DNA of 27,596 bases from a virus. The notes beneath the pieces are model-generated. The model was given only the letters and a program-made list of their open reading frames with translations. It made no database searches and was not told the origin of the DNA. Shown in pieces: positions 5,666-27,596 of the stretch (the first letter of the stretch is position 1; every line of letters begins with the position of its first letter). The stretch covers positions 1 to 27,596 of the IMG/VR virus record IMGVR_UViG_3300042445_001315; one strand, written 5' to 3'. Made by a program: the position numbers and the translations under genes.

Positions 5666-6412
5666 ATGTTAAATTCCAAAGAAATTTCGGACAAACTATA
5701 CGTCCTTAAAAGAAGAACTTTCCCTATTTCATTTATGTTAGCGTCACGTAATACTACACGTCGCTCTTTATTGTACTTCGATACAAAGACCAACATGAAT
5801 CGTCCACTTAGATATGCTGTTAACCAAAAGTCTCCTTTCGAGGATGAACAAGATGGTAACTTCATTTTAGAGCCAATCATCTTTGAAGATGGTTTATTAT
5901 CTGTACCAAAAGAGAATCAAGTATTACAAATGTTCTTAGCTTATCACCCAGATAATGGTTCGATATTCGAAGAGGTTGATACCAAGCGTGATGCTTCAGT
6001 TCAGATTGATAGTATTAATATCCAATTAGATGCTCAGATTGCAGCACGTGAATTAGATATTGCTACAGCAGAAGCTATTTCTAGAGTAACGATGGGTACT
6101 AATGTAGATAGATTATCGAGCGAAGAATTGAGAAGAGACTTGATGTTATTCGCTAGAAACAATCCATACGACTTCTTGCAACTATTAAACGATCCAGAAC
6201 TTAAATTGCAGAACATCGCAGTTAAATCTTTACAAGATGGTACGTTTTTATTAAAGAACAAGAACCGTGATATCTTCTTTAACTTGCAAGACAACAAGAA
6301 GAAGTTAATGGGTGTTCCATTCGGAGAAGACCCAACAAGGTTACTAGCTGCATGGCTCCAGAGCAATGATGGCTTAGATACTTATGAATATCTATCTAAG
6401 AAATACCAATAA
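5666..6412 (+). CDS. Conserved capsid-adjacent protein of unknown function
   Basis: This 248-residue soluble protein has no signal peptide or membrane segment. The N-terminal half is a compact, probably conserved domain with FDTKTNMNRPLRYAVNQKSP and FEDEQDGNFILEPIIFEDG at about residues 35-80. The middle (~110-165) is helical with regular acidic and basic residues. The C-terminal part (GTFLLKNKNRDIFF, then GVPFGEDPTRLLAAWLQ) is mixed. I recognise the type as one found beside the capsid gene in Bacteroidota phages but know no function. Plausible roles are a minor or auxiliary capsid protein or a head-completion factor. The gene is isolated between two strong terminators (5606-5641 and 6418-6443), so it either depends on read-through from the capsid gene or has its own weak promoter. 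Confidence 0.6.
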   Translation: MLNSKEISDKLYVLKRRTFPISFMLASRNTTRRSLLYFDTKTNMNRPLRYAVNQKSPFEDEQDGNFILEPIIFEDGLLSVPKENQVLQMFLAYHPDNGSIFEEVDTKRDASVQIDSINIQLDAQIAARELDIATAEAISRVTMGTNVDRLSSEELRRDLMLFARNNPYDFLQLLNDPELKLQNIAVKSLQDGTFLLKNKNRDIFFNLQDNKKKLMGVPFGEDPTRLLAAWLQSNDGLDTYEYLSKKYQ

Positions 6413-6417
6413 GAAAT

Positions 6418-6443
6418 AGGGGGACGAAAGTCTCCCTTTTTTT
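6418..6443 (+). terminator. Intrinsic terminator with GAAA tetraloop and T7 tract
   Basis: Arms 6419-6425 (GGGGGAC) and 6430-6436 (GTCTCCC) pair over seven positions, one of them G-T. They are closed by a GAAA tetraloop at 6426-6429 and followed by seven T's at 6437-6443. This is a classic rho-independent terminator six bases after the stop codon of the 5666 gene. Confidence 0.92.
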
Positions 6444-6471
6444 GTATATTACATATGCCAAAATTTATGCT

Positions 6472-6479
6472 TATTTTTG
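6472..6479 (+). promoter_or_regulatory. Bacteroidota-type -7 box before connector/tail genes
   Basis: TATTTTTG matches TAnnTTTG and lies between the terminator at 6418-6443 and the next gene. A start near 6484-6486 would leave a ~27-base leader before the GTG at 6512. I see no convincing -33 TTG at standard spacing. Its placement after a strong terminator supports a real restart of transcription for the tail genes. Confidence 0.55.
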
Positions 6480-6511
6480 TAGAATAAAGGTATCATAAAC
6501 AAATACGTATA

Positions 6512-7204
6512 GTGATAAATTCTGTGAGAAACACGGTTCTGAGTATTATAAATAAACAGAACAACGGATACATAACACCAGAAGAATTCAACAGCTTTGC
6601 AAAACAAGCTCAGTTAGAAATCTTCAATCAATACTTTGTGGACTTTAGAAACTCTAAAGTAAAAGATAGCAAGGGTTTTGAGACATCTGGTTACTCTGAC
6701 GTAACAAAGCAGATGGACCAGACTATTGACTATTTCTCAAAGAATGTAGATTTAAACTTTACATCATCTACAGGTAGGTTCAATATGCCAAGTGGTTGGT
6801 TTTTATTAAACGTATTATATTATAATGGTAAAGAGGTAACTCACGTTAATCAAGAAAAGCTACACTACCTTTTAAACTCAAATCTTACAGCACCTACACA
6901 AACATACCCTACGTATGTTTTGCAAGGAAACGATATTACTATTTATCCAAATACTATTACTAGTGGGGTTAGTACATATTATGTGCGTTTTCCATATGAT
7001 CCCAAGTGGACATATACAACTGTAAACGGAAGCCCGTTATTTAATCAGTCAGCTAATGACTATCAAGACTTTGAGTTAACTGAATCTGATTTTCCTAGAT
7101 TAGTTGCTAAGATTTGTGGATACGCAGGAGTAAGCATTCGTGAGAGTGAAGTCTCTGCAGCTGCGAGAAATGAAGAACTTTACATGGATCAAACTCAACA
7201 ATAA
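6512..7204 (+). CDS. Head-tail connector/ring-like protein 1
   Basis: This 230-residue protein starts at GTG. The frame is open back to 6488 but has no ATG, TTG or other GTG upstream, so 6512 is the best start; it also leaves room for the promoter-like box at 6472. The N-terminal region (INKQNNGYITPEEFNSFAKQ, residues ~12-31) is a helical segment that I associate with connector or adaptor proteins of Bacteroidota podoviruses. The middle contains beta-rich segments (STGRFNMPSGWFLLNVLYY; DITIYPNTIT) and the end is helical. Position after the capsid genes, and a TAATG stop/start overlap with the next connector-like gene, suggest that it builds the neck under the portal. The exact role (adaptor versus ring protein) cannot be decided from the sequence. 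Confidence 0.6.
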   Translation: MINSVRNTVLSIINKQNNGYITPEEFNSFAKQAQLEIFNQYFVDFRNSKVKDSKGFETSGYSDVTKQMDQTIDYFSKNVDLNFTSSTGRFNMPSGWFLLNVLYYNGKEVTHVNQEKLHYLLNSNLTAPTQTYPTYVLQGNDITIYPNTITSGVSTYYVRFPYDPKWTYTTVNGSPLFNQSANDYQDFELTESDFPRLVAKICGYAGVSIRESEVSAAARNEELYMDQTQQ

Positions 7205-8103: not shown

Positions 8104-11100
8104 ATGGAGCTTCAAAGAAATTTCCTTTCAGGGGTCATGAATAAAGATCTTGACCCTCACTTTTTGCCTGATGGTACCTATCGGGATGCGATGAATATTA
8201 TCGTAGGCGACTCTGAATCTTCTAACGATGGTGCAGCTCAAAACCTATTAGGTAACACTATGCTTAATAGTGATTTAGGTTTAGTTAATGCTAGATGCAT
8301 TGGAGCCTTGTCTTATGATGCAGAGAACTTAATATACTGGTTAGTTACATCTGATTTAGCTGATGTGATTTATGAGTATAATGAATTGCTTGCTACTACT
8401 ACTGTAGTACTTAGAGCAAGTAAGGGTTTAACAACAAAGTCTATTTTAAACTTTAATAAAGACTACCCTATAACAGGGATAAACTATATTAATGGTTTAT
8501 TATTCTGGACAGACAATTACAACCCTCCACGTAGAATAAATATTTCTCGTTGCAAGTCTTACCCTACAAATGGGTTTACTGAATCAGATATCAATGTAAT
8601 TGTAAAGCCACCTATCAGTGGACCAATAATTGGTTTAACAAAGGAAGGAGATGCAACAAGTCTTGATAATAGATTTATCTACTTTGCTTATAGATATAAG
8701 TATGTTGACAACGAGTACAGTGCCTTGTCTCCATTTTCTCCGGTAGCTTTTTCACCTAAGACTTTTGCTTATGACTATGGTGTATCTGAGAACATATCAA
8801 TGGTTAACACTTACAATACAGCAAATGTTAGCTTTAATTCAGGAGATAGAAACGTAAAAGAGATTCAGTTAATTTATCGTGATACATATAACTTAAACGC
8901 ATATGTTATAGATAATATTGTTAAGGCTGATAATTTTTATGCAGACAACCAAATCTATACTTATACATTTAAGAATGATAAGGTATATACGGTATTGCCT
9001 CAAGACCAGATAAATAGATTATTTGATAACGTACCATTAAGAGCAAAATCTCAAGAATTAATTGGCAGTAGATTAGTTTATGGAAACTATACTCAGTTCT
9101 TTAGTTTAAATACTTGTTTGGGTACAGGATTAGATCCGGCATTTTCTTTATCATTAACAACTAGTAATATCGAATTAGGTGTACCTAAGCCTACATTTAA
9201 AAGTAATAGAGATTATGAGATTGGTCTTATATACTTAGATGACTATGGTAGATCAACTACAGTAATTACGCCTACAGCTAATACAAATACAATTACTATT
9301 CCGGGCTCGAACTCAACGAAAGCAAATAACATTCGTGTTACAATCTCAGGTTCTTATAATCCTCCTTGTTTTGCGACTAGCTATCGATTGACGCTTAAGC
9401 AGAATAAGCAAGACTATTATAATATCTATCCTATTACTTATTTTATTGATGGTCAGTTTAAGTGGTTTTTAATTAACCAATCTGACCAAGACAAGATTAG
9501 TGTTGGGTCATACTTCTTTTCTAAAACACCAACTAACCCAGCACCTGATACAAGATACAAGGTGTTAGATTTAGCTGTAAAGAGTTTAGACTTCTTAGGT
9601 AATGATACCACTCAGCCTGCTGGTGTGTACTTTAAAACTAAGATTAATGACACAGCACTCCCTGCATTATACTCTTATAGTAATTGGAGTGCGGCTGGAG
9701 TAAACCCTGGTCTCCCAATTAATAATCCTTTTGTTGTAGCTGAGAAAGCTATATTCTATGGCAAAGGATTAAATGATATGATTACGAGTAATGGTAATAT
9801 ATTTACTAGTACTAAGTACGATGCAAGATTTTATATTGAAATAGCAGAGGTTGGATTGGTTGATAAATTCGCTTGGTATATTTGGGTTAATGGAGAGGGG
9901 AAAAAATACGTTGGAACCTTATCTATTACAGCAGGTGTAAACCAATTATTATCTTATACTTATACAAATAACAATATTGTATATACAATATCTTGCACCA
10001 TTAGATTTGCTACAGCAACAGGTCATACAGCTAGTGATTTCTGGACTATTATGGGCCGTGCTCCATTAACAGGAGGCTTTAGTATATTTGGAGGAGATAG
10101 AGCAGGAGGGGCATCTTACCCTATTGTAACAATGCAACCTTGGCAGTTAGACACTAACTCTCCTAGAGATAGACCTATTGAGGCAGGAGCTCTTGTTACA
10201 TTTAGCACTAAATACAATCCGGAGGACTATGAGAATACAGTAAACCAATCATTTGTAGCAACAGGCAAGTACACTAATATTGAGGAGTGGTTTATTGAAG
10301 ACGGTGTTTACTCTAAATTAAAATCATCTCTTTTGATTGATGGAGAGAAAGACGTTCAGTTTAGAAGAGTTAATGCGTTACCTACAAGTAACACAAATGC
10401 TACAACTAACCAGGGTGGTTCTATTTCTGCAACTACATTGAACAATACTGTTGCGATGTATTTCCAAGGTGGAGGAGGTGCATCATTGTATGCAAGAATG
10501 ACTGTTATTCAGCAGTCTGCGTTGACCATATTAGAAACGGTACCTAGCGAATCAAACCAAGATATATACTATGAGCTTTCAAAAACGTATCCTATTGTCA
10601 ATGGTAATCATGTTGGAAATGTTCAAAATCAAATTACTGCAAGTAATACGCCAGCCATAATTGACTTAAATACGTTTGATATCAATTCTGACTTTAATGC
10701 TTTTTGCTTTGGTAACGGAGTAGAGAGTATTCAAATTAGAGATGACTTCAACTCTCCTAAGATGGAATTTAGCCCACGTGCTAACTCAACCATCGAAGGG
10801 TACGATCAGCAGACATTGGTGCAAGCGTTAACTTATAGTGGTGTATACCAACAGACTACAGCTGTAAACAGACTCAATGAATTTAACTTGTCTCTTGGAA
10901 ACTTTAAGTACTTGGATAGATTCTTTGGTTCTATTCAAAAGTTATACTCAAGAGATACAGACTTAGTCGTATTCCAGGAGAACAAAGTTTCGAAGGTATT
11001 ATATGGCAAAAACTTATTGAGTGACTCTACCGGTGGTGGTGTTGTTGCATCAATTCCTGAAGTACTAGGTACTCAGATATCTTATGTGGGGGAATATGGT

Positions 11101-11628
11101 ATTAGTAATAATCCAGAAAGCTTTGCTAGATGGGGTAATAACTTATTCTTTACAGATGCAAGACGTGGTGCTGTATTGGCATTACAGGGTGATGGATTGT
11201 TTGAGATTTCTTCTCGAGGAATGAAGAACTGGTTTAAGGCTAACCTTAACACGAACACTCAAAAACTTGGAATGTTTGATCCGTATTTTGAACAATATAT
11301 TGTTTCAAACAATAATATTTCTGTTAAAGTTTGTAACTTTAGTTTATCTAATACTACTGTTGTAGTTTCTGGTAACGGTGTTACTAACGGATTTGGATTT
11401 AATATTGATTCAAATACATCTTGGACAATTGCAACACCGAGTGTCAATTGGATAACAGTTAGTGACTCTTCTGGAAATGGAAGTCAGACTATTAACATTA
11501 CTGTTTTGGAAAACTTATCATCAGCTAGACAGACTACATTAACAGTAACAAATGGATGTGGTCCATCAAAGCAAGTAATAATTAAACAAAATGAAACTTG
11601 TGCATTTACAGGCACTGTTACAGCATAA
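8104..11628 (+). CDS. P22 gp10-like tail stabilisation/hub protein with C-terminal BACON domain
   Basis: This 1174-residue tail protein begins with LSGVMNKDLDPHFLPDGTYR, then DAMNIIVGDSESSNDGAAQN and LLGN. That arrangement is characteristic of P22 gp10-like tail stabilisation proteins, whose body is a beta-propeller sealing the tail below the connector rings. Propeller-like repeats follow (ALSYDAENLIYWLVTSD, ITGINYINGLLFWTDNYNPP), and the body remains beta-rich and Asn/Thr/Tyr-rich. A second recognisable section at ~930-1060 (KYLDRFFGSIQKLYSRDTDL; YGISNNPESFARWGNNLFF) is conserved in such hub proteins. Residues ~1077-1164 form a BACON-type beta-sandwich: TSWTI, VNWITVS, SGNGSQTINI, then an R-x-TTLTV strand. 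BACON domains are frequent in Bacteroidota and crAss-like phages and are thought to bind carbohydrates. The ATG follows the previous stop by three bases. Confidence 0.75.
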   Translation: MELQRNFLSGVMNKDLDPHFLPDGTYRDAMNIIVGDSESSNDGAAQNLLGNTMLNSDLGLVNARCIGALSYDAENLIYWLVTSDLADVIYEYNELLATTTVVLRASKGLTTKSILNFNKDYPITGINYINGLLFWTDNYNPPRRINISRCKSYPTNGFTESDINVIVKPPISGPIIGLTKEGDATSLDNRFIYFAYRYKYVDNEYSALSPFSPVAFSPKTFAYDYGVSENISMVNTYNTANVSFNSGDRNVKEIQLIYRDTYNLNAYVIDNIVKADNFYADNQIYTYTFKNDKVYTVLPQDQINRLFDNVPLRAKSQELIGSRLVYGNYTQFFSLNTCLGTGLDPAFSLSLTTSNIELGVPKPTFKSNRDYEIGLIYLDDYGRSTTVITPTANTNTITIPGSNSTKANNIRVTISGSYNPPCFATSYRLTLKQNKQDYYNIYPITYFIDGQFKWFLINQSDQDKISVGSYFFSKTPTNPAPDTRYKVLDLAVKSLDFLGNDTTQPAGVYFKTKINDTALPALYSYSNWSAAGVNPGLPINNPFVVAEKAIFYGKGLNDMITSNGNIFTSTKYDARFYIEIAEVGLVDKFAWYIWVNGEGKKYVGTLSITAGVNQLLSYTYTNNNIVYTISCTIRFATATGHTASDFWTIMGRAPLTGGFSIFGGDRAGGASYPIVTMQPWQLDTNSPRDRPIEAGALVTFSTKYNPEDYENTVNQSFVATGKYTNIEEWFIEDGVYSKLKSSLLIDGEKDVQFRRVNALPTSNTNATTNQGGSISATTLNNTVAMYFQGGGGASLYARMTVIQQSALTILETVPSESNQDIYYELSKTYPIVNGNHVGNVQNQITASNTPAIIDLNTFDINSDFNAFCFGNGVESIQIRDDFNSPKMEFSPRANSTIEGYDQQTLVQALTYSGVYQQTTAVNRLNEFNLSLGNFKYLDRFFGSIQKLYSRDTDLVVFQENKVSKVLYGKNLLSDSTGGGVVASIPEVLGTQISYVGEYGISNNPESFARWGNNLFFTDARRGAVLALQGDGLFEISSRGMKNWFKANLNTNTQKLGMFDPYFEQYIVSNNNISVKVCNFSLSNTTVVVSGNGVTNGFGFNIDSNTSWTIATPSVNWITVSDSSGNGSQTINITVLENLSSARQTTLTVTNGCGPSKQVIIKQNETCAFTGTVTA
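11332..11595 (+). other. BACON domain region within the gp10-like protein
   Basis: Residues ~1077-1164 show the BACON pattern: strand, Trp (SNTSWTI), a second Trp before the turn (SVNWITVSDSSGNG), then TINITVLEN and RQTTLTVTN strands. Two cysteines flank it (CNFSL and NGCGP), and a short Cys-containing tail follows. The domain is at the C-terminus of the polypeptide, so it may be exposed at the tail surface. Confidence 0.75.
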
Positions 11629-11639
11629 AATAAAAACAA

Positions 11640-14600
11640 ATGAGCAAGTCGCTTTACGTAAAAATAACCAACACTCAGTCACTTGGACCGTATGCTATAT
11701 ACTATGATGCAGTTAGTGCAGCAAATTTTGCATTTTTCTACGGGACTACGACAGAAACAGAAAACATTCCGGTTACTTTATTAGTAGAGGGTAGTGGTGT
11801 AAGAGTTACAGTACCTAGTTCTGCGACTAAAATTATATTGCAAAATGCAAATGGCGACTGTCATAACTATAAAGATTTTTCAATAGCACCGCCTACCCCA
11901 ACGACTGCTCCACCTACTACTGCTCCACCTACTACAACTTTATTTCCACCTGTTGTGTTTACTAGCGTAACGACAGCTTGTGTGTTATATTATGATGGAA
12001 GCGGGCAGATTGTTATTAATATAACAGGAGGAAGTGGGTTGTATCAATACAGTATTGACGATGGTGTAACATATACCGCATCAACATCAAATCTTAGTGC
12101 AACTTTTAATAACCAACCAAACAAGGTTGGAGGATATAAGATTAAAGTAAAAAGTGTTACAGACAATAGGGTTTTTGCTTATCCTTCAAATCCAGTAAAC
12201 TTAAACTGTGCTCCTAAATTTGTCGCATCTCAAACAAGTAATTGTGACCAGAATGGATATGGTGCAATTTTATTTAGTGCATCTGGAGGTAGTGGTACGT
12301 ACCAATACAGCATTACAGATAGAACAACAGGACAAGTATTTCCTAAGCAAAGTTTTTTAGCGTTTACAAATTTAGATGGAACCCATTCATTTGATACATA
12401 TGCTTATGATTCAGGTAATCCTATTCCAGAATTAGCAAATAGTCCTGTATACACTGGACAGGTTGATTTCGCTTGTGTTCAACCAACACCAACGACATTA
12501 AATCCACCTATTGTTGTTACAGCAACATTTACTTGTAGTAATGATAATACAGCAAATGTTACATTAGCCGCAACAGGTGGCGTAGGTTCTCCATATGAGT
12601 ACGCTATGACAACCAGTATTTCGGATGTTCCTGTTTATCAGAATTCAAATCTATTTACTAATAAGTCAGCTCCAACTGGAGGTATAAATTATTATTTGTG
12701 GGCTAAGGATGCAAACGGCAAACAAGGGACTGGTATTAAAAATATAACATGTGCTGCTGTACCTCCACCTCCAATTACATTTACATCTGTTACTTCTGTA
12801 TGTGATTTGTATTATGTTGGTAGTGGTAAGATTACAATCAATGTATCTGGTGGTACTGGAGTATATCAATATAGCATTGATAATGGAACTACGTTTACTA
12901 GTTCAACAACAAATGCTACATTTTCTTTTACTAATTTAGCTAACGGTACATATAATATTAAAGCTAAAAGTATAGGTGATAATGTTATTTATACTTACGG
13001 ATCAAATCCTGTTACAATTGCATGTGCTGCTGATTTCACTGCTACTAAATTCTCGTCGTGTGCACAAAATGGCACAGGAACAATTACTGTTTCTGCATCT
13101 GGAGGTAGTGGTACTTATCAATATAGCTTGCAGAATGTAACAACAGGTGCTGTTATTCCAAAGCAAAGCTTAAATGTATTCGGTGGGTTAAATGGATTAA
13201 ACACATACGATGTTTATGCGTATGACGTAGGCAATACAGTAAACCCTAACTACCAAATATACGTAGGGCAAGTAGTGTTTAACTGTCCTCAACCGACAAC
13301 AGCACCTCCAACTCTTGCTCCTTTGTCAGTTACAGCTACAGCAGGATGTGCTCCTAGTGGTATATCTGGAACAGGCCGATTAACTGCTGGAAGCTTTAGT
13401 GGTGGTACTGGAATATATGTTTATGCTGCATATGGTTCATCAGAATCAAATGCTATTTCCAATGTTAGAAACCCTAGTGCAAGAATTACATTAAGCGGTG
13501 CCTTATCATATACTTGGCAGAATTTAGCTAACGGACCATACTTCGTTGCTATACAAGACAGTAGAGGTGATGGGTATGAAGATGTGTCAAATGGCGTAAC
13601 AATTAGTTGTACATCAACAGAGGCACCTCATCAGCAGTTCTTAGTGTATAATCTTGCAACTAATACATGTGCTAACACAGGTACAGCTACAAGATATTGG
13701 ACATATAACATGTCACTTACTACTGGATACTATAGATTAAATGGTAGTACAACTCGTGTTAAGATTGAAAGTGCAGCACCAATAACTGATAGAGGTACTC
13801 AAATTACTTCTTCTGTTGCAGATAACTGCCTTACATCAACTGTTAGATTAACACCATTTAATGATGTGCCACCAAGTGCATATACATTATTTGTAAATGA
13901 TGTGCCATATCCTGACTTTGATGAGGGTGAAAGATCTTACCCTGTTGGATCTGTTATAAAATTAGTTTACGATGGAGTTAATAATGTTTGTGGTGTTGTA
14001 TTAAATGACACAGCATACGTATCTAGCACCAATGTAACACTTGTTAATGGAGTTAGTTATACTTTTAAATTGTATAACTATAATTTCTGGTCTAACGCAG
14101 GAACTACCTATTGCAGCAATAATAAAACATTTCAGCCTCAAGCAAATGCTTGTGGAAATACTAGACAAGTAGAAGTATTCCCTTGTTCCACTAAATGTAC
14201 TGCAACAACTTTCACAGATGTTTGTACTGGAGATTATGGACAGAATGTAACAAGAACATTCTATTATGCTTGTAATGGTCAAGCTACAGGTACTGTAACT
14301 CAATTGACTTGTGGTGGCACATGTACAAGTGTGGCTCAAGATTGGGAAGTTACAGCTACTTATTGCAAACCAGGATTTTGTAATTTATTTAATGAAGAGA
14401 CGCAATCCAACCCTTGTGCTCCTAACCCAGGTAGTACACGTGAGGTAGCATTACAAACAAATAGTTGCGATTGTGGAGAGACTTGCGCTGGAACATATTC
14501 TACTTCTACTTGCGACCCTAATAACCCAGGGACACAAATAACAGTTGTTAGATATACATGCTTCCCTAATAGTGTTGTTAGCTCAACATCTACATCATGT

Positions 14601-15884
14601 GTTGAAGCTTGTGGAGCAAATACATCTCAAAACTGGGTTAATGAAGGAGCAGTTTTTTGCAGCAGTTGTATTAAAAAGCAAACTCAAAGACAATTAAATC
14701 CTTGTGCTCCTGGATATAACACAACAAGAGTAGTAGATGCAACCGATGGCAATACAACTTGCGAATGCGGTGAAGAGTGTAAAGGCACAGAAACGTATAA
14801 CTTCTGTAGTGGCACACAAGGTAAAAGTTATTATAGTGTTCAAAGATACGTATGCCCTCCGAATTCATATACTACTACGCCTCAACTAGTTGGTACATGC
14901 CTTGTTGGTACATGTGGTGTAACTACAACACCACAATACGATGCTAAGGGATATAATGCATGTTATTCTGGAGCAGGTTATCCTTGCACAACAGGTCCTG
15001 TATATCAAGATATAAATTATTGTTCTAGTACTTATAATAATTACTTTATTGAAGTAAGTGGAAATAAAATTAATGTAGGGACTCAACCTACGCAAGGGGC
15101 ATGTAATACAACTGAAAATTGGGTAGATACAGGAGCTGTTAGATGTTCAAGCACTTGTGTAAACGAGAAACAACAACAACAACAAAATCCATGTGCAACT
15201 GGATACAACACTACTCGTTGGGTAAGTAATCCTGGTGGAACTTCTTGTAACACAACTCCTAATTGGGTAGATACAGGAGCTGTTAGATGTTTTGAATGCG
15301 CAAATCAGAAAGAACAACAACAAACTAATCCGTGTGCATCTGGTACTATTCGTTGGGTAAGTAATCCTAGTGGAACTTCTTGTAACTATAATGCTAATTA
15401 CTCAGACCTAGTTGGCAATATTTATAGTTGTTCTGGTGGCGTTATAAGTGCAACACCTGTATATGAAAATTCTAATCTTTGTTTTACTGCTAGTAATCAA
15501 TGGCAAGCTGGTGGTACAACATATACATCGAATCCTTCTCAATCTTATCCTAACACTGATCCACTTTGTCTAGATACAGGTGCTCCATATTGTATAGAAC
15601 CTAACATAGTAGTTAATCTATACCAAGCAAATCCTTGCTCAACAGGAACTTGTCCACCATACAGAATCACTATACCAAATGGATGTGCACCTGCTTGCAA
15701 AACTTATAATTGGTCTTGTAATAATGGATTTGGAGTAAATTGTAATATTGTAGCGACAAGATGCGATGGAAGTTCTTATAACGATTCTGTACCAGATAAT
15801 TCAAGTGGTTCTGTATGTGCTCAAACGGGTGCTTTTGCAATTGATAATGATGGTAGTTATACCGAGGGTGGAACTTGTTCATAA
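11640..15884 (+). CDS. Modular tail fibre/adhesin with SprB-like and Cys-rich repeats
   Basis: This 1414-residue protein is probably a tail fibre or receptor-binding protein. Residues 1-80 are an N-terminal domain that may anchor it to the tail. Residues 82-103 are a Thr/Pro linker. Residues 105-657 contain six beta-sandwich-like repeats of the SprB type (GGSGxYQYSI core, then an NLANGTYNIKAKS-like strand) in the order A-B-C-A'-B'-C', separated by further Thr/Pro or Pro linkers at ~281-290, 374-379 and 550-561. Residues ~840-1414 are very Cys-rich, with repeats of a Trp/GAxxC/NPCA/TTRxV pattern and CxCGExC clusters. There is no signal peptide, enzyme motif or obvious chaperone domain. The leader is A-rich (11629-11639). 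It lies between the tail hub and two sugar transferases. SprB repeats are known from gliding adhesins of Bacteroidota. Carbohydrate or protein receptor binding is inference. Confidence 0.7.
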   Translation: MSKSLYVKITNTQSLGPYAIYYDAVSAANFAFFYGTTTETENIPVTLLVEGSGVRVTVPSSATKIILQNANGDCHNYKDFSIAPPTPTTAPPTTAPPTTTLFPPVVFTSVTTACVLYYDGSGQIVINITGGSGLYQYSIDDGVTYTASTSNLSATFNNQPNKVGGYKIKVKSVTDNRVFAYPSNPVNLNCAPKFVASQTSNCDQNGYGAILFSASGGSGTYQYSITDRTTGQVFPKQSFLAFTNLDGTHSFDTYAYDSGNPIPELANSPVYTGQVDFACVQPTPTTLNPPIVVTATFTCSNDNTANVTLAATGGVGSPYEYAMTTSISDVPVYQNSNLFTNKSAPTGGINYYLWAKDANGKQGTGIKNITCAAVPPPPITFTSVTSVCDLYYVGSGKITINVSGGTGVYQYSIDNGTTFTSSTTNATFSFTNLANGTYNIKAKSIGDNVIYTYGSNPVTIACAADFTATKFSSCAQNGTGTITVSASGGSGTYQYSLQNVTTGAVIPKQSLNVFGGLNGLNTYDVYAYDVGNTVNPNYQIYVGQVVFNCPQPTTAPPTLAPLSVTATAGCAPSGISGTGRLTAGSFSGGTGIYVYAAYGSSESNAISNVRNPSARITLSGALSYTWQNLANGPYFVAIQDSRGDGYEDVSNGVTISCTSTEAPHQQFLVYNLATNTCANTGTATRYWTYNMSLTTGYYRLNGSTTRVKIESAAPITDRGTQITSSVADNCLTSTVRLTPFNDVPPSAYTLFVNDVPYPDFDEGERSYPVGSVIKLVYDGVNNVCGVVLNDTAYVSSTNVTLVNGVSYTFKLYNYNFWSNAGTTYCSNNKTFQPQANACGNTRQVEVFPCSTKCTATTFTDVCTGDYGQNVTRTFYYACNGQATGTVTQLTCGGTCTSVAQDWEVTATYCKPGFCNLFNEETQSNPCAPNPGSTREVALQTNSCDCGETCAGTYSTSTCDPNNPGTQITVVRYTCFPNSVVSSTSTSCVEACGANTSQNWVNEGAVFCSSCIKKQTQRQLNPCAPGYNTTRVVDATDGNTTCECGEECKGTETYNFCSGTQGKSYYSVQRYVCPPNSYTTTPQLVGTCLVGTCGVTTTPQYDAKGYNACYSGAGYPCTTGPVYQDINYCSSTYNNYFIEVSGNKINVGTQPTQGACNTTENWVDTGAVRCSSTCVNEKQQQQQNPCATGYNTTRWVSNPGGTSCNTTPNWVDTGAVRCFECANQKEQQQTNPCASGTIRWVSNPSGTSCNYNANYSDLVGNIYSCSGGVISATPVYENSNLCFTASNQWQAGGTTYTSNPSQSYPNTDPLCLDTGAPYCIEPNIVVNLYQANPCSTGTCPPYRITIPNGCAPACKTYNWSCNNGFGVNCNIVATRCDGSSYNDSVPDNSSGSVCAQTGAFAIDNDGSYTEGGTCS
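11952..12476 (+). repeat. SprB-like repeat pair A-B, first copy
   Basis: Residues 105-279 hold domain A (CVLYYDGSGQIVINITGGSG) and domain B (ASGGSGTYQYS and a PKQS motif). Both reappear ~273 residues later at 12771-13286. The similarity is evident at protein level and partly at DNA level, indicating an old-to-intermediate tandem duplication of a block of ~820 bases that also includes domain C. Confidence 0.75.
12771..13286 (+). repeat. SprB-like repeat pair A'-B', second copy
   Basis: Residues 378-549 repeat the A-B pair: CDLYYVGSGKITINVSGGTG parallels the first A domain, and ASGGSGTYQYS with VIPKQS parallels the first B domain. A C-type domain follows each pair (residues 291-371 and 561-657), though the two C domains are more diverged. 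Confidence 0.75.
15117..15147 (+). repeat. 31-base exact direct repeat, copy 1
   Basis: These 31 bases, encoding NWVDTGAVRC, recur exactly at 15261-15291, 144 bases (48 codons) away. Exact identity in a protein repeat points to recent duplication or gene conversion. Confidence 0.9.
15171..15185 (+). repeat. (CAA)5 microsatellite in the fibre gene
   Basis: Five CAA units encode QQQQQ between two Cys-rich motifs. A shorter run of the same kind occurs near 15313-15322 in the next repeat. Trinucleotide slippage here would change the linker length without a frameshift. Confidence 0.85.
15216..15251 (+). repeat. 36-base direct repeat with one mismatch, copy 1
   Basis: These 36 bases, encoding RWVSNPGGTSCN, recur at 15351-15386 with a single G-to-A change, 135 bases downstream and in frame. 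The offset differs from that of the 31-base repeat because the second unit lacks three codons. Confidence 0.88.
15261..15291 (+). repeat. 31-base exact direct repeat, copy 2
   Basis: This is identical to 15117-15147. The spacing of 144 bases keeps the reading frame. Confidence 0.9.
15351..15386 (+). repeat. 36-base direct repeat with one mismatch, copy 2
   Basis: This is the second copy of the 15216-15251 sequence, encoding RWVSNPSGTSCN. The only difference is the first base of the GGT/AGT codon. Confidence 0.88.
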
Positions 15885-15899
15885 ATAAAATAAAATAGA

Positions 15900-16814
15900 A
15901 TGAATTTAAGATTTATATGTGCACAGCCTGCCACGTTGTATTATGCGTGGCAGGTTGATGTTATGTTGAATAACTTTATACAAATGGGGGTCAACCCAAA
16001 ACAAATAGATATTGTTTGTTTCAACGAGCTTGACAATACTATAGACGAATGGATTGAGGTTGTCAAAAAGTATCCAGCTAATTTCTTTTTCTACAAGGAC
16101 ACAAGAAAGACCAAGCATTATATATCTTCTATTAGACCCAATATATTAAAACAACATTGGGAGGCATATCCTGAACTTAAGGATCAAACTGTATTCTACC
16201 ACGATTGCGACATCGTCTTCACTAAGCCTATCTCTGAATGGATAACCGATGAGATGGTTAATGATAGCAATTGGTATGGGTCAGATACTAAATTCTACAT
16301 TGGACACAACTACATTAAATCAAAAGGAGAAGATGTGCTTGAGGCAATGTGTGATATTATTGGTATATACAAAGAAGTTGTTGAGCGTAATGAGGAGAAC
16401 ACCATAGGTGCTCAATACATTATTAAGAATGTAGATGCCAAGTTTTGGGAATTAGTAGAATTAGATTCAGAGGATTTATACAAAAACATAACTGATTTAA
16501 ATAACACTAAGAAGATGTTTGACCCTACATACCATGAACTACAAATATGGTGTGCAGATATGTGGGCTTTATTATGGACTGCTTGGAAGGCAGGTAATAC
16601 AACCATAATACACCCTAACCTAACATTTGCATGGGGAACAAGTAATATATCTCAATGGGATGATTATAATATCATGCATAACGCAGGTGTTACATCATCT
16701 AGTACGGGATACTTTTATAAAAGTGCTTATACAAATCAGTATCCACCAAAAGATTTAGACATAAATAAAGATACATGTAGTTATATGTATTATCAACTAG
16801 TAAAGCAATTGTAA
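15900..16814 (+). CDS. Putative DxD-type glycosyltransferase
   Basis: This 304-residue soluble protein has features of a GT-A-fold glycosyltransferase. The N-terminal strand RFICAQPA and the DIVCFNE strand at ~37-43 fit a nucleotide-sugar binding Rossmann-like half. The sequence VFYHDCDIVFTKPI at ~98-111 contains a DxD motif (D102-C-D104), which usually coordinates the metal ion and the sugar nucleotide. Later aromatic-rich segments (WCADMWALLWTAWKAG; HPNLTFAWGTSN) could form the acceptor site. There is no membrane segment. It follows the fibre gene by 15 bases and ends with a TAATG overlap with the GT29-like gene, so the two enzymes are probably made together. A strong hairpin lies at codons 10-19. 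Donor and acceptor sugars cannot be read from the sequence; family assignment is by motif only. Confidence 0.6.
   Translation: MNLRFICAQPATLYYAWQVDVMLNNFIQMGVNPKQIDIVCFNELDNTIDEWIEVVKKYPANFFFYKDTRKTKHYISSIRPNILKQHWEAYPELKDQTVFYHDCDIVFTKPISEWITDEMVNDSNWYGSDTKFYIGHNYIKSKGEDVLEAMCDIIGIYKEVVERNEENTIGAQYIIKNVDAKFWELVELDSEDLYKNITDLNNTKKMFDPTYHELQIWCADMWALLWTAWKAGNTTIIHPNLTFAWGTSNISQWDDYNIMHNAGVTSSSTGYFYKSAYTNQYPPKDLDINKDTCSYMYYQLVKQL
15927..15954 (+). other. Perfect 9-bp GC-rich hairpin in the 5' part of the glycosyltransferase gene
   Basis: CCTGCCACG at 15927-15935 pairs perfectly with CGTGGCAGG at 15946-15954 across a 10-base loop, in an otherwise AT-rich region and 27 bases after the start codon. 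No T tract follows, so it is not a standard terminator. It could impede translation or stabilise the downstream mRNA. Confidence 0.7.
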
Positions 16815-17380
16815 TGAGTATAATTATTGTAGGAAATGGACCCACGTTACTTGATAAGGACAATGGTCGCAAGATTGACAACTTCGATATAGTTGTTAGA
16901 TTTAATGCATACTCTATTGAGGGGTTTGAAATGCAGGTTGGAACTAAGACTGACTTTTGGTTCAACACAGTAAACTTCCAAAATAAGCAGAAAGAGTCTA
17001 GGCTTAATAAACACTACAAGCGTATTGTTTGGCATTCATGGCAATGGGATGAGCAGATGGATGAAGCCTATCAAGAATTTGTTGAATTCTTTTCAGACAA
17101 AGATGTGAATCTTTCTAAGACAGTAAAGGAAACAACCACTGAGATGTGTGAGTATGTGGATGATATGACGTACGTTAATTATTCAACAGGAGCGATTGCT
17201 ATATGGATGCTTGTTAAAGAGTTTGGTCATGTCACTATTACTGGTTTTGATTGGTGGGAGTCATTAGATAAGCATCACTATAACGACAATGCAAGAAGAG
17301 GTACATTGCATAAGCCAGAAAAAGAAATGGTATTAATAGGCAAGTTAATATTCGAGAACAAGCTATCTATTCTTAATTAA
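16814..17380 (+). CDS. Sialyltransferase-like (GT29-type) glycosyltransferase
   Basis: This 188-residue protein shows the four signature motifs of GT29 sialyltransferases in the correct order. The L-motif-like start is IIIVGNGPTLLDKDNGRKID followed by VVRFN (residues 3-31). The S-motif-like segment is NYSTGAIAIWMLVKEFGHV followed by GF (122-145). The motif III-like HYND is at 155-158, and the VS-motif H-x4-E is at H166-E171. These elements bind CMP-sialic acid and supply catalytic His residues in known enzymes. The paired L/S-motif cysteines of the animal enzymes are missing, as is an N-terminal membrane anchor, so this would be a small cytoplasmic form. It is coupled to the preceding glycosyltransferase by TAATG. 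Transfer of sialic acid or a related sugar is inferred; another donor is possible. Confidence 0.75.
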   Translation: MSIIIVGNGPTLLDKDNGRKIDNFDIVVRFNAYSIEGFEMQVGTKTDFWFNTVNFQNKQKESRLNKHYKRIVWHSWQWDEQMDEAYQEFVEFFSDKDVNLSKTVKETTTEMCEYVDDMTYVNYSTGAIAIWMLVKEFGHVTITGFDWWESLDKHHYNDNARRGTLHKPEKEMVLIGKLIFENKLSILN

Positions 17381-17403: not shown

Positions 17404-18129
17404 ATGGCTGACTATACTATTTCATATTCTCCTAAGTTATCAGGATGGACATCCTATCATTCATTCTATCCAGAGTGGATGGTATCGATGAATAACTTCT
17501 TGTATACATTTAAGAACGGTAACCTATATAAGCACAATACCAATCAGACAAGAAACTCTTATTATGGTGTGGTATCTCCTTCTAGGTTAACAACTATCTT
17601 CAATCAGGAGCCAACGCAAACAAAGGCATTTAAGACACTAGCTCTTAATGCTACTAGTCCATGGCAGTCAATCATTACATCTGACCAAGGAGAGGGCGTT
17701 ATCAATTCCTCATGGTACGATCTAAAGGAGGGTACATGGTATGCTTACATTCGTAGGAATGTAGATGACAATAATTTGTCCATGATATCAACTCAGGGTA
17801 TTGGGAATGTATCGTCTAAGTCATCTAACGTATTGTCGTTTAGCTTCCCGATGGATGACATTGTTAGTACTGGTGATAAGTTATATTCTGTTATTAATGG
17901 AGGCTTGACTTTTGTGGGTAACATCACAGCACATACAGATATATCTATAACAACCGATGGGTCGGGACTATCTCCTGCTATTGGTACATTCTTGGTATTC
18001 CAAAAGAACGCAACAGCTGAATCATACCCTACATTAGGTACGTATTTAAACGTCGAATTTATTAATGCGGATACTTCGTATACTGAATTATTCTCTGTAA
18101 CTTCGAGCATATTTAAATCCTACCCATAA
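17404..18129 (+). CDS. Conserved phage structural-type protein, function unknown
   Basis: This 241-residue protein begins with YTISYSPKLSGWTSYHSFYP, then EWMVSMNNFLYTFKNGNLYK. I recognise this pattern from tail or virion proteins of Bacteroidota phages, where it typically reads WTS.hSF.P.....N.fyTF.nG.LY.hN. Asn/Tyr-rich and beta-rich segments continue (NQTRNSYYG; IFNQEPTQTKAFKTLALN), with a second beta domain from ~110 to 240. There are no membrane segments, signal peptide or catalytic motif. It is preceded by a promoter-like box rather than a terminator, and followed by the GNAT-like gene, which has its own box. A minor tail component near the fibre is the most likely role. A carbohydrate-binding accessory protein cannot be excluded. 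Confidence 0.55.
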   Translation: MADYTISYSPKLSGWTSYHSFYPEWMVSMNNFLYTFKNGNLYKHNTNQTRNSYYGVVSPSRLTTIFNQEPTQTKAFKTLALNATSPWQSIITSDQGEGVINSSWYDLKEGTWYAYIRRNVDDNNLSMISTQGIGNVSSKSSNVLSFSFPMDDIVSTGDKLYSVINGGLTFVGNITAHTDISITTDGSGLSPAIGTFLVFQKNATAESYPTLGTYLNVEFINADTSYTELFSVTSSIFKSYP

Positions 18130-18147: not shown

Positions 18148-18555
18148 ATGGTATTTACTATTAGGTTGCTAAACGAAAGCGACTACGATAATACATTGGT
18201 GAAATGGTGGAAAGACTGGCGATGGTCAGCACCTCCAAAAGAAATGTTACCTAACAATGGCTTAGGTGGATTTATGGTTTCTAAGGGAGATGTGGATATC
18301 TGTGCTGGCTTTGCGTACTTTACTAACTCTGGGATAGCATTCTGCGAGTTTATTGTATCTAACTTTGAATACAAAGAAGATGATCGCAAAGAAGCTATTG
18401 AGTTCTTGATAGAATCCATTTCAGTAGCCTGCAAGAATGCAGGTCACAAGGCCGTTTGGACTGTTTTAAGAAACAAAGGCTTAATAGAGAAATACGAAAA
18501 TTGCGGATACAAAAGAACGCAAGAGAATTGTACAGAAATGATAAAATTATTATAA
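18148..18555 (+). CDS. GNAT-like N-acetyltransferase
   Basis: This 135-residue protein fits a compact GNAT fold. Residues 3-14 form the first strand and helix (FTIRLLNESDYD). Residues ~50-70 form the central strands (DICAGFAYF, then GIAFCEFIVSN), and a charged helix follows at ~76-98. The segment AGHKAVWTVLRNKGLIEKYENCGYKR (98-123) has the usual strand, Asn and x-Y-x-x-x-G-F/Y end of GNAT enzymes. The canonical acetyl-CoA pyrophosphate loop (R/Q-x-x-G-x-G/A) is degenerate here: DDRKEAIEFL replaces it. Substrate is unknown. It could modify a protein, an amino sugar or a small molecule. It sits between structural genes but has its own promoter-like box, as expected for an accessory (moron-type) gene. 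The ATG at 18557 of the next gene follows after one base. Confidence 0.6.
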   Translation: MVFTIRLLNESDYDNTLVKWWKDWRWSAPPKEMLPNNGLGGFMVSKGDVDICAGFAYFTNSGIAFCEFIVSNFEYKEDDRKEAIEFLIESISVACKNAGHKAVWTVLRNKGLIEKYENCGYKRTQENCTEMIKLL

Positions 18556-26610: not shown

Positions 26611-27596
26611 CTAAAAGATATTGACTAGTCTAGCAACCTGCCCATTTTCTTTGTGGTGGATGAACCCCTCAACCGCTTTAGGTGCGTGTTGATAGCCATT
26701 TCTATGGTGCCATGAATCGGTACCACTGGGAGATCGGAGAGACTCGACGCAAACGCCCATGTAATCCTTAGAAGACTTGTGATGAACGTGGTGAGTATAT
26801 ACGTAACGGTGTTTGGAGTCTGCCCACTCCTTGCTTGCTTCATGAGCCATTAATAAAGGTAAGTCTTGGGACTTAGCACCATCGCCATGTGTAGTTCCAA
26901 TTAAATTGTTTCCATATTTTGTATACTTTCTGTGTGCGATAGAACAGTCAAATGTAATATTAGAGTTGTTGTGGAACCAAGACTGAATAGCATCAGCTAA
27001 AAAGAAGCCATTGGTATAGTCATGGTTAGATGGATTGAACACAAAGTGAACATCAGCTATACTAATTAACATTTCGATGACCTCGATATATAGCTTCTTA
27101 GCGACTCTAAAGTTGTCGTACCACATTCCATCTGTATCCTGTGGAGTTCCGCCCGTGGTGGTCCGTTTTGGGGTGTCTATGTGAAGGATGTCATTACCTC
27201 CAACAAAAAGTATCTGGTCGATATTAAACCCAGACGCTTTCTGAACAATACCACGTACTCCATCAAGTACACGCTGAACAGCAATCTGATTATTGTAGTC
27301 ATCTCCTGTCTCAAAAGCGGAGGCTAACTTACCAATGTGAATATCAGCCGGGTCAATCACAAGAAGGTGGCCATCCACAATATTGCTGCGATCTAACTTA
27401 GGGTATACGGGTGCATGCTTTTGCATCTCAGCCACGATGTCGGCTCGCATGTCATGATATGTCTGCACTGGGTCTCTCTTGTCAACCTTGACAAAAATAG
27501 ACTGTTTGTCGGTCTTCAACCAGTAGTGCGAGACTTCACCGATTGGTGCACCTTCTTTATCACACTCATCGTTGAGGCTCTTGTGCTCTGACTTTA
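26611..27596 (-). CDS. Calcineurin-like metallophosphoesterase (partial at window end)
   Basis: The frame is open to the right edge of the window; a TTG near 27519 is only an internal codon, because the coding sequence continues upstream with a plausible protein (ending GEVSHYWLKTDKQ). So the N-terminus is missing. Visible motifs of the calcineurin-type phosphoesterase fold, in order, are DPADIHIGK (D-x-H, near 27340), LFVGGNDILHID (G-N-D, near 27190), NPSNHD (near 27025), THGDG (near 26885) and YTHHVHHK (in place of the usual GHxH, near 26785). These residues would hold two metal ions. The substrate may be nucleic acid, nucleotide or phosphoprotein. Coding on the opposite strand suggests a different, possibly early, module. 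Downstream lies the small ORF with its own box. Confidence 0.75.
   Translation of the reverse strand, partial: KSEHKSLNDECDKEGAPIGEVSHYWLKTDKQSIFVKVDKRDPVQTYHDMRADIVAEMQKHAPVYPKLDRSNIVDGHLLVIDPADIHIGKLASAFETGDDYNNQIAVQRVLDGVRGIVQKASGFNIDQILFVGGNDILHIDTPKRTTTGGTPQDTDGMWYDNFRVAKKLYIEVIEMLISIADVHFVFNPSNHDYTNGFFLADAIQSWFHNNSNITFDCSIAHRKYTKYGNNLIGTTHGDGAKSQDLPLLMAHEASKEWADSKHRYVYTHHVHHKSSKDYMGVCVESLRSPSGTDSWHHRNGYQHAPKAVEGFIHHKENGQVARLVNIF

Follow-up and report, generated by a model that had tools for sequence, protein, structure and literature searches.

By sequence and predicted structure, the open reading frame at positions 16814–17380 of the window (the whole 27,596-nucleotide stretch analyzed here, virus record IMGVR_UViG_3300042445_001315) is a complete minimal domain of the glycosyltransferase family GT29. 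Membership of this family is firm, since the protein matches the Pfam profile PF00777, its top PDB matches are exclusively GT29 structures and the catalytic positions are kept in its relatives; the protein is a predicted enzyme. Enzymes of this sialyltransferase family are usually regarded as animal enzymes. The gene lies in a 27.6-kb record which comprises the structural module of a crAss-like phage, with portal, capsid and tail proteins, a fibre-like protein and a muzzle C-terminal protein, and the fibre and muzzle genes flank a two-enzyme pair consisting of a phrog_4417 gene (15900–16814) and the GT29 gene (16814–17380). We give about an even chance to the reading that this pair is a virion-glycosylation cassette, in which the phrog_4417 enzyme acts first and GT29 then caps the glycans of Thr-rich tail segments, probably with Kdo. 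The locus contains the following features:

8104–11628, + strand: conserved tail protein, 1174 aa, left border of the slot that holds the pair; immediately 5' of the muzzle C-terminal gene in most relatives (relatives' loci)
11640–15884, + strand: large tail-fibre-like protein, 1414 aa, with SprB repeats, candidate glycan acceptor (PF13573, E 5.2e-15)
11886–11942, + strand: Thr/Pro-rich linker APPTPTTAPPTTAPPTTTL, fibre residues 83–101, candidate O-glycosylation segment (looser Thr-rich test passed, strict test failed)
13293–13343, + strand: second Thr/Pro-rich fibre linker, residues 552–568 (Thr-rich tract test)
15900–16814, + strand: predicted phrog_4417 glycosyltransferase, 304 aa, GT8/glycogenin-like GT-A fold (phrog_4417, E 1e-68; predicted structure)
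16203–16211, + strand: DxD motif of the phrog_4417 enzyme, D102-C-D104 (neither Asp varies across 31 aligned sequences)
16814–17380, + strand: GT29 glycosyltransferase, 188 aa, minimal catalytic domain (PF00777, E 2.9e-16; fold; residues conserved among 26 close relatives)
17404–18129, + strand: crAss muzzle C-terminal domain protein, right border of the cassette (PF25729, E 2.8e-16)

The phrog_4417 and GT29 genes share one base, within the TAATG that joins stop and start codon, and the GT29 frame runs from the ATG at 16814 to the stop codon ending at 17380. SprB repeats are known from the gliding adhesins of Bacteroidota; besides these the fibre-like protein (11640–15884) carries a long Cys-rich repeat region. 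Nearly all crAss-like relatives have, 3' of the muzzle gene, a small conserved protein of unknown function, phrog_17252 (18148–18555 in the window), which is GNAT-like by eye and has no Pfam match. On the minus strand, a 302-aa ORF (26611–27519) appears metallophosphatase-like by eye and has no meaningful Pfam match.

With respect to the GT29 assignment, the PF00777 match reached 60.1 bits against a cut-off of 23, residues 4–180 covering positions 58–269 of the 272 in the profile, whereas no family was found for this ORF among the PHROGs and NCBIfam profiles. A phmmer search of the single sequence against the PDB retrieved ST6GalNAc2 at 2e-6, and a profile of 16 relatives aligned ST3Gal1 end to end (E 7.9e-11). 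This profile alignment places the GN, RMN, STG, HY and H-x4-E elements of ST3Gal1 at N8, N31, S124-T125, H155-Y156, and H166 with E171. All eight residues are conserved in the close family of 26 sequences, except for L in place of Y156 in one and S in place of T125 in two. The four sialylmotifs, including the catalytic His, Tyr, His and Glu, are located as follows:

16832–16843, + strand: start of the L-motif, G7-N8-G-P (N8 aligned with N147 of ST3Gal1, a donor/acceptor-contacting residue)
16898–16906, + strand: L-motif R29-F30-N31 (invariant in the close family)
17183–17191, + strand: S-motif S124-T125-G126 (family and ST3Gal1 alignments)
17243–17248, + strand: end of the S-motif, G144-F145, inside the subfamily's invariant ITGFDWW signature (family alignment)
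17276–17287, + strand: motif III H155-Y156-N-D158, H155 being the predicted catalytic acid (ST3Gal1 alignment; role in hST3Gal1 according to PMC6884586)
17309–17326, + strand: motif VS H166-x4-E171, H166 being the predicted catalytic base (ST3Gal1 alignment; PMC6884586)

The corresponding histidines and tyrosine of human ST3Gal1 are essential (PMC6884586). The AlphaFold2 model of the phage protein (pLDDT 82.6, pTM 0.84) is least confident at motif III, with a pLDDT of about 50 at residues 151–160. The model shows the GT-A-like fold of GT29: all 30 of its PDB matches at E <0.001 were GT29 structures, the next fold following at 0.02; superposition on ST3Gal1 (2WNF) gave Z 13.8 and an rmsd of 2.9 over 166 residues, and Foldseek matched 6APL with E 3.5e-8. 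GT42 (CstII type) was rejected as a better family (Z 10.5 versus 13.8 for GT29; no GT42 Pfam match listed), as were HPPK-like and thiamin pyrophosphokinase folds, which appear in the structure list and rank beneath all GT29 and GT42 matches. Relative to the relative L002 the gene has a dN/dS of 0.16, based on only 14 differences at 97% DNA identity, which suggests purifying selection.

The earlier note on this DNA had listed all four GT29 motifs in order within 188 residues and pointed to H155/H166-type residues for the CMP pocket. The motifs are there: a loose pattern of the four ordered motifs was satisfied by none of 200,000 shuffles of the protein. The ST3Gal1 alignment makes H155 and H166 the predicted acid and base, in line with the note's guess. 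The profile search and the structural superposition returned GT29, and neither a prediction unlike GT29 nor a stronger match to an unrelated family was encountered. Profile, fold and synteny together back GT29 membership, an active site for a CMP-sugar and the placement in a tail module. The note was likewise right that the L/S cysteine pair and the membrane anchor of animal enzymes are missing, as the protein has a single cysteine (C112), so no disulphide pair, and no predicted membrane segment (highest 19-residue Kyte-Doolittle mean 1.22). The L/S disulphide and the type II membrane anchor belong to animal GT29 only and are not a requirement of the family. Their absence is not peculiar to the phage protein, for PMC5811610 describes 23 bacterial GT29 proteins that carry the four sialylmotifs and likewise have neither a transmembrane segment nor the cysteine pair.

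For the phrog_4417 partner, a Pfam search at E 1 gave no match, and it is therefore left without a CAZy family. Its AlphaFold2 model (pLDDT 95, pTM 0.92) is closest to glycogenin-1 (Z 14.8) and LgtC (Z 14.4), and we predict from it a GT8/glycogenin-like GT-A glycosyltransferase. The family, listed as of unknown function, occurs in more than 300 viral stretches and 74 isolate records, and its relatives extend to phages of Gram-positive hosts. Among 34 crAss-like loci fetched with a muzzle gene, 28 have no gene in the slot, and relatives lacking the cassette have a 1370-aa tail gene directly followed by the muzzle gene. Of the other six loci, a near-identical relative of the window (L103) carries GT29, while five (L104, L109, L112, L113 and L130) combine phrog_4417 with a methyltransferase, a family-2 glycosyltransferase or a radical-SAM protein. 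Since the partners of phrog_4417 differ in this way, with GT29 as the one present here, the slot looks like a swappable modification cassette. In L130 a radical-SAM/SPASM protein (5933–6961) occupies the place of the window's GT29, which suggests other kinds of tail-protein modification.

The ORF immediately 5' of phrog_4417 is frequently Thr-rich and mucin-like. In a strict test this was the case at 60 of 77 viral loci compared with 40 of 833 other ORFs; because numerous loci in these counts are related, the counts are not independent. Among crAss-like loci, Thr-rich tracts were present in 5/6 with phrog_4417 and in 0/25 without (p 3.5e-5). The strict test was used for all statistics because a looser one also caught three crAss-like loci lacking the cassette; the Thr-rich linkers in the window itself are short, passed the looser test only and hence leave the window uncounted under the strict test. 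Nine isolates were inspected as well, and seven have a Thr-rich tract beside phrog_4417 (521B, R3.3, LpeD, F1, 1706, phiFL1A and MA9V-3). The tract is a C-terminal tag on the major tail or another structural protein in phiFL1A, R3.3, 1706, F1 and 521B, an internal linker in MA9V-3, and part of a separate small protein (orf68), already annotated as a glycoprotein, in LpeD; in bIL285 and Planchet the capsid genes 5' of phrog_4417 are not Thr-rich. Two proteins of the phiFL1A head-tail cluster (L089, 2960–3955 and 5345–6001) both bear Thr-rich C-terminal tags; one of them is the annotated major tail protein, whose gene lies immediately 5' of phrog_4417. Judged by these gene neighborhoods, the phage's own Thr-rich tail proteins are a more likely target than the host surface.

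Scans of viral contigs yielded 38 GT29 loci of the same subfamily, and proteins similar in length to the 188 aa of the window's GT29 are common among the relatives. A genome scan added one bacterial locus, in a Verrucomicrobiales MAG (L102, 48% identical); as only 1 of 195 Verrucomicrobiota genomes has a GT29 over the cut-off, this relative is not a common host gene. Distant GT29 proteins were found in phage DLP6 and in two huge phages, one of them with several copies. Four kinds of neighborhood were seen. In the first, GT29 lies immediately 3' of phrog_4417 in tail modules (the window, L098, L184–L186, L188–L190 and L191); the pairs of L184–L186 and L188–L190 adjoin a tape-measure gene, and L191 is another crAss-like muzzle locus. 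In the second, the tail type of L168–L182, phrog_4417 stands farther along the same module as GT29, on 6 of 11 contigs, and has a Thr-rich ORF immediately 5' of it. In the third, a family-2 glycosyltransferase adjoins GT29 (L004, L005, L093), with fibre-like genes nearby in L004 and L005. In the fourth, GT29 is distant from tail genes and lies by a GDP-mannose dehydratase gene, in several cases also by a terminase gene. A separate lineage (L006, L007, L094–L097 and others) sits beside terminase and GDP-mannose dehydratase with Thr-rich proteins in 0/8, so not every GT29 relative need act on tails. Altogether, at least four tail modules contain GT29 together with phrog_4417. The tree places the window's GT29, with moderate support, among relatives of the third kind that lack phrog_4417, apart from the L184/L191 group; from this position the pairing has probably arisen more than once.

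GT29 enzymes use CMP-sugars, and a search for a cytidylyltransferase or other donor-synthesis gene in the window found none. Among the close relatives, L095 has a KdsB-like gene immediately 5' of GT29, although below the family cut-offs, and L163/L192 has a KdsB over the TIGR00466 cut-off 2.7 kb from GT29. The huge phage LR756500.1 (L137, about 130 kb) carries KdsD-, KdsB- and KdsA-type genes about 9 kb from GT29 and apparently encodes the whole CMP-Kdo route from pentose phosphate; its GT29 is very distant and lacks a clear motif III, and therefore its donor cannot simply be carried over. The 484-kb phage record LR756508.1 (L153/L091, 309–327 kb) has a tandem GT29 cluster and a further copy beside a cytidylyltransferase gene; for this enzyme NCBIfam gives PseF alone, below the cut-off (E 2.8e-12). 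A weak cytidylyltransferase match in G013/L141 was dropped, being another kind of sugar nucleotidyltransferase. The enrichment is small: cytidylyltransferase genes occur in 4/42 GT29 viral records and in none of 40 phrog_4417 control contigs, and record sizes differ. The plant GT29 RCKT1 has been proposed as a CMP-Kdo transferase from genetic and chemical evidence (PMC11288761). Given the KdsB genes near relatives, the LR756500 route and the plant enzyme, Kdo, or another ulosonic acid, is more likely than sialic acid as donor of the subfamily, and for the window's own GT29 we infer Kdo by extension.

In the cassette reading, GT29 would work in the infected cell's cytoplasm and carry out the second step of virion glycosylation. 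The phrog_4417 enzyme, probably with a metal and a UDP-sugar, would start or extend a glycan on the Thr-rich segments of the fibre, and GT29 would then transfer a CMP-activated ulosonic acid, most likely Kdo from CMP-Kdo that serves host LPS synthesis. The transfer would be inverting, H166 serving as base and H155 as acid, and would leave a tail glycan with a negatively charged cap.

The same cassette and acceptor might instead use CMP-sialic acid or a bacterial nonulosonic acid (pseudaminic, legionaminic), which we consider rather unlikely. The solved GT29 matches are all sialyltransferases and the LR756508 enzyme with its weak PseF match lies near a GT29 copy, but the cytidylyltransferases near close relatives are of the KdsB type. 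Moreover, nearly every Gram-negative host has CMP-Kdo, while nonulosonic acids are distributed patchily. The earlier suggestion of sialic acid or a related sugar is partly supported, Kdo or another ulosonic acid being more likely than sialic acid. The same note had left open whether the fibre or the host surface receives the sugar, and here the Thr-rich link favors the fibre. That GT29 modifies host LPS or capsule during infection and masks receptors against superinfection appears unlikely: Kdo is an LPS sugar, and genes for Kdo, GDP-mannose dehydratase and other sugar functions are found near some GT29 relatives, but the protein has no predicted membrane segment, the overlapping phrog_4417 is strongly tied to Thr-rich virion proteins and has relatives in Gram-positive phages too, and GT29 is found in the structural modules of four or more tail types.

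We regard it as very unlikely that the protein lacks catalysis and uses its GT29 fold solely to bind a nucleotide or sugar. At 188 residues it misses about 57 positions at the start of the Pfam profile, and model confidence is low around motif III; however, close relatives keep the residues of acid, base and donor site, the dN/dS is low and relatives of this length are common. Still more remote is glycosylation of phage DNA or a nucleotide, of which phage glycosyltransferases are capable (PMC12619734) and for which the terminase-linked lineage would leave room; the window contains no base-modification genes that we noticed, and the locus is a tail module. As to the earlier remark that such an enzyme is unusual in a tail module, this is correct for the GT29 family, which is rare there, but not for glycosyltransferases in general, which are common in phage tail modules.

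A GT29 in a phage structural module points to a route of virion glycosylation and suggests a role for phrog_4417, a family that is widespread in phages and has so far lacked an assigned function. Among phages that can be cultured, Enterococcus phiFL1A, Chryseobacterium MA9V-3 and Lactobacillus LpeD carry phrog_4417 next to a Thr-rich protein of the virion module. More broadly, and with somewhat less than even confidence, we propose that tailed phages of many hosts run their own mucin-type O-glycosylation with Thr/Ser-rich capsid or tail tags, phrog_4417 and exchangeable finishers, the GT29 finisher here capping with Kdo, a sugar otherwise typical of LPS. If true, surface sugars of crAss-like phages could affect adsorption, stability and recognition.

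A GT29 in a phage is not new in itself, as UniProt already holds automatically annotated viral GT29 folds in an uncultured Caudovirales phage (A0A6J5NLG3) and in Mimiviridae sp. ChoanoV1 (A0A5B8IFN6), for which we found no described function or gene context. In the part of the literature covered, we found no description of a phage GT29 or of Thr-rich phage tags tied to glycosyltransferases. With the animal GT29 enzymes ST3Gal1 (2WNB/2WNF) and ST6GalNAc2 (6APJ/6APL) the phage protein shares the fold, the four sialylmotifs and the catalytic histidines; it differs in being phage-encoded, in lacking membrane anchor and L/S disulphide, and in having 188 residues compared with about 270–300 in the solved animal catalytic domains. 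GT42 (CstII, Cst-I) has a related fold with Z about 10, weaker than every GT29 match listed. Bacterial GT29 proteins share the motifs and the absent anchor and cysteines, whereas the phage copy is set apart by its site in a tail module and its coupling to phrog_4417. The plant RCKT1/MGP2 of rhamnogalacturonan II belongs to the same family and likely uses the same donor (PMC11288761), but is a Golgi enzyme with a polysaccharide acceptor. Finally, virion glycosylation of mycobacteriophages, as summarized in PMC12619734 from Freeman et al. 2023, places sugars on the C-termini of both capsid and tail-tube proteins; sugars on virion proteins would be common to both systems, whereas the hosts differ.
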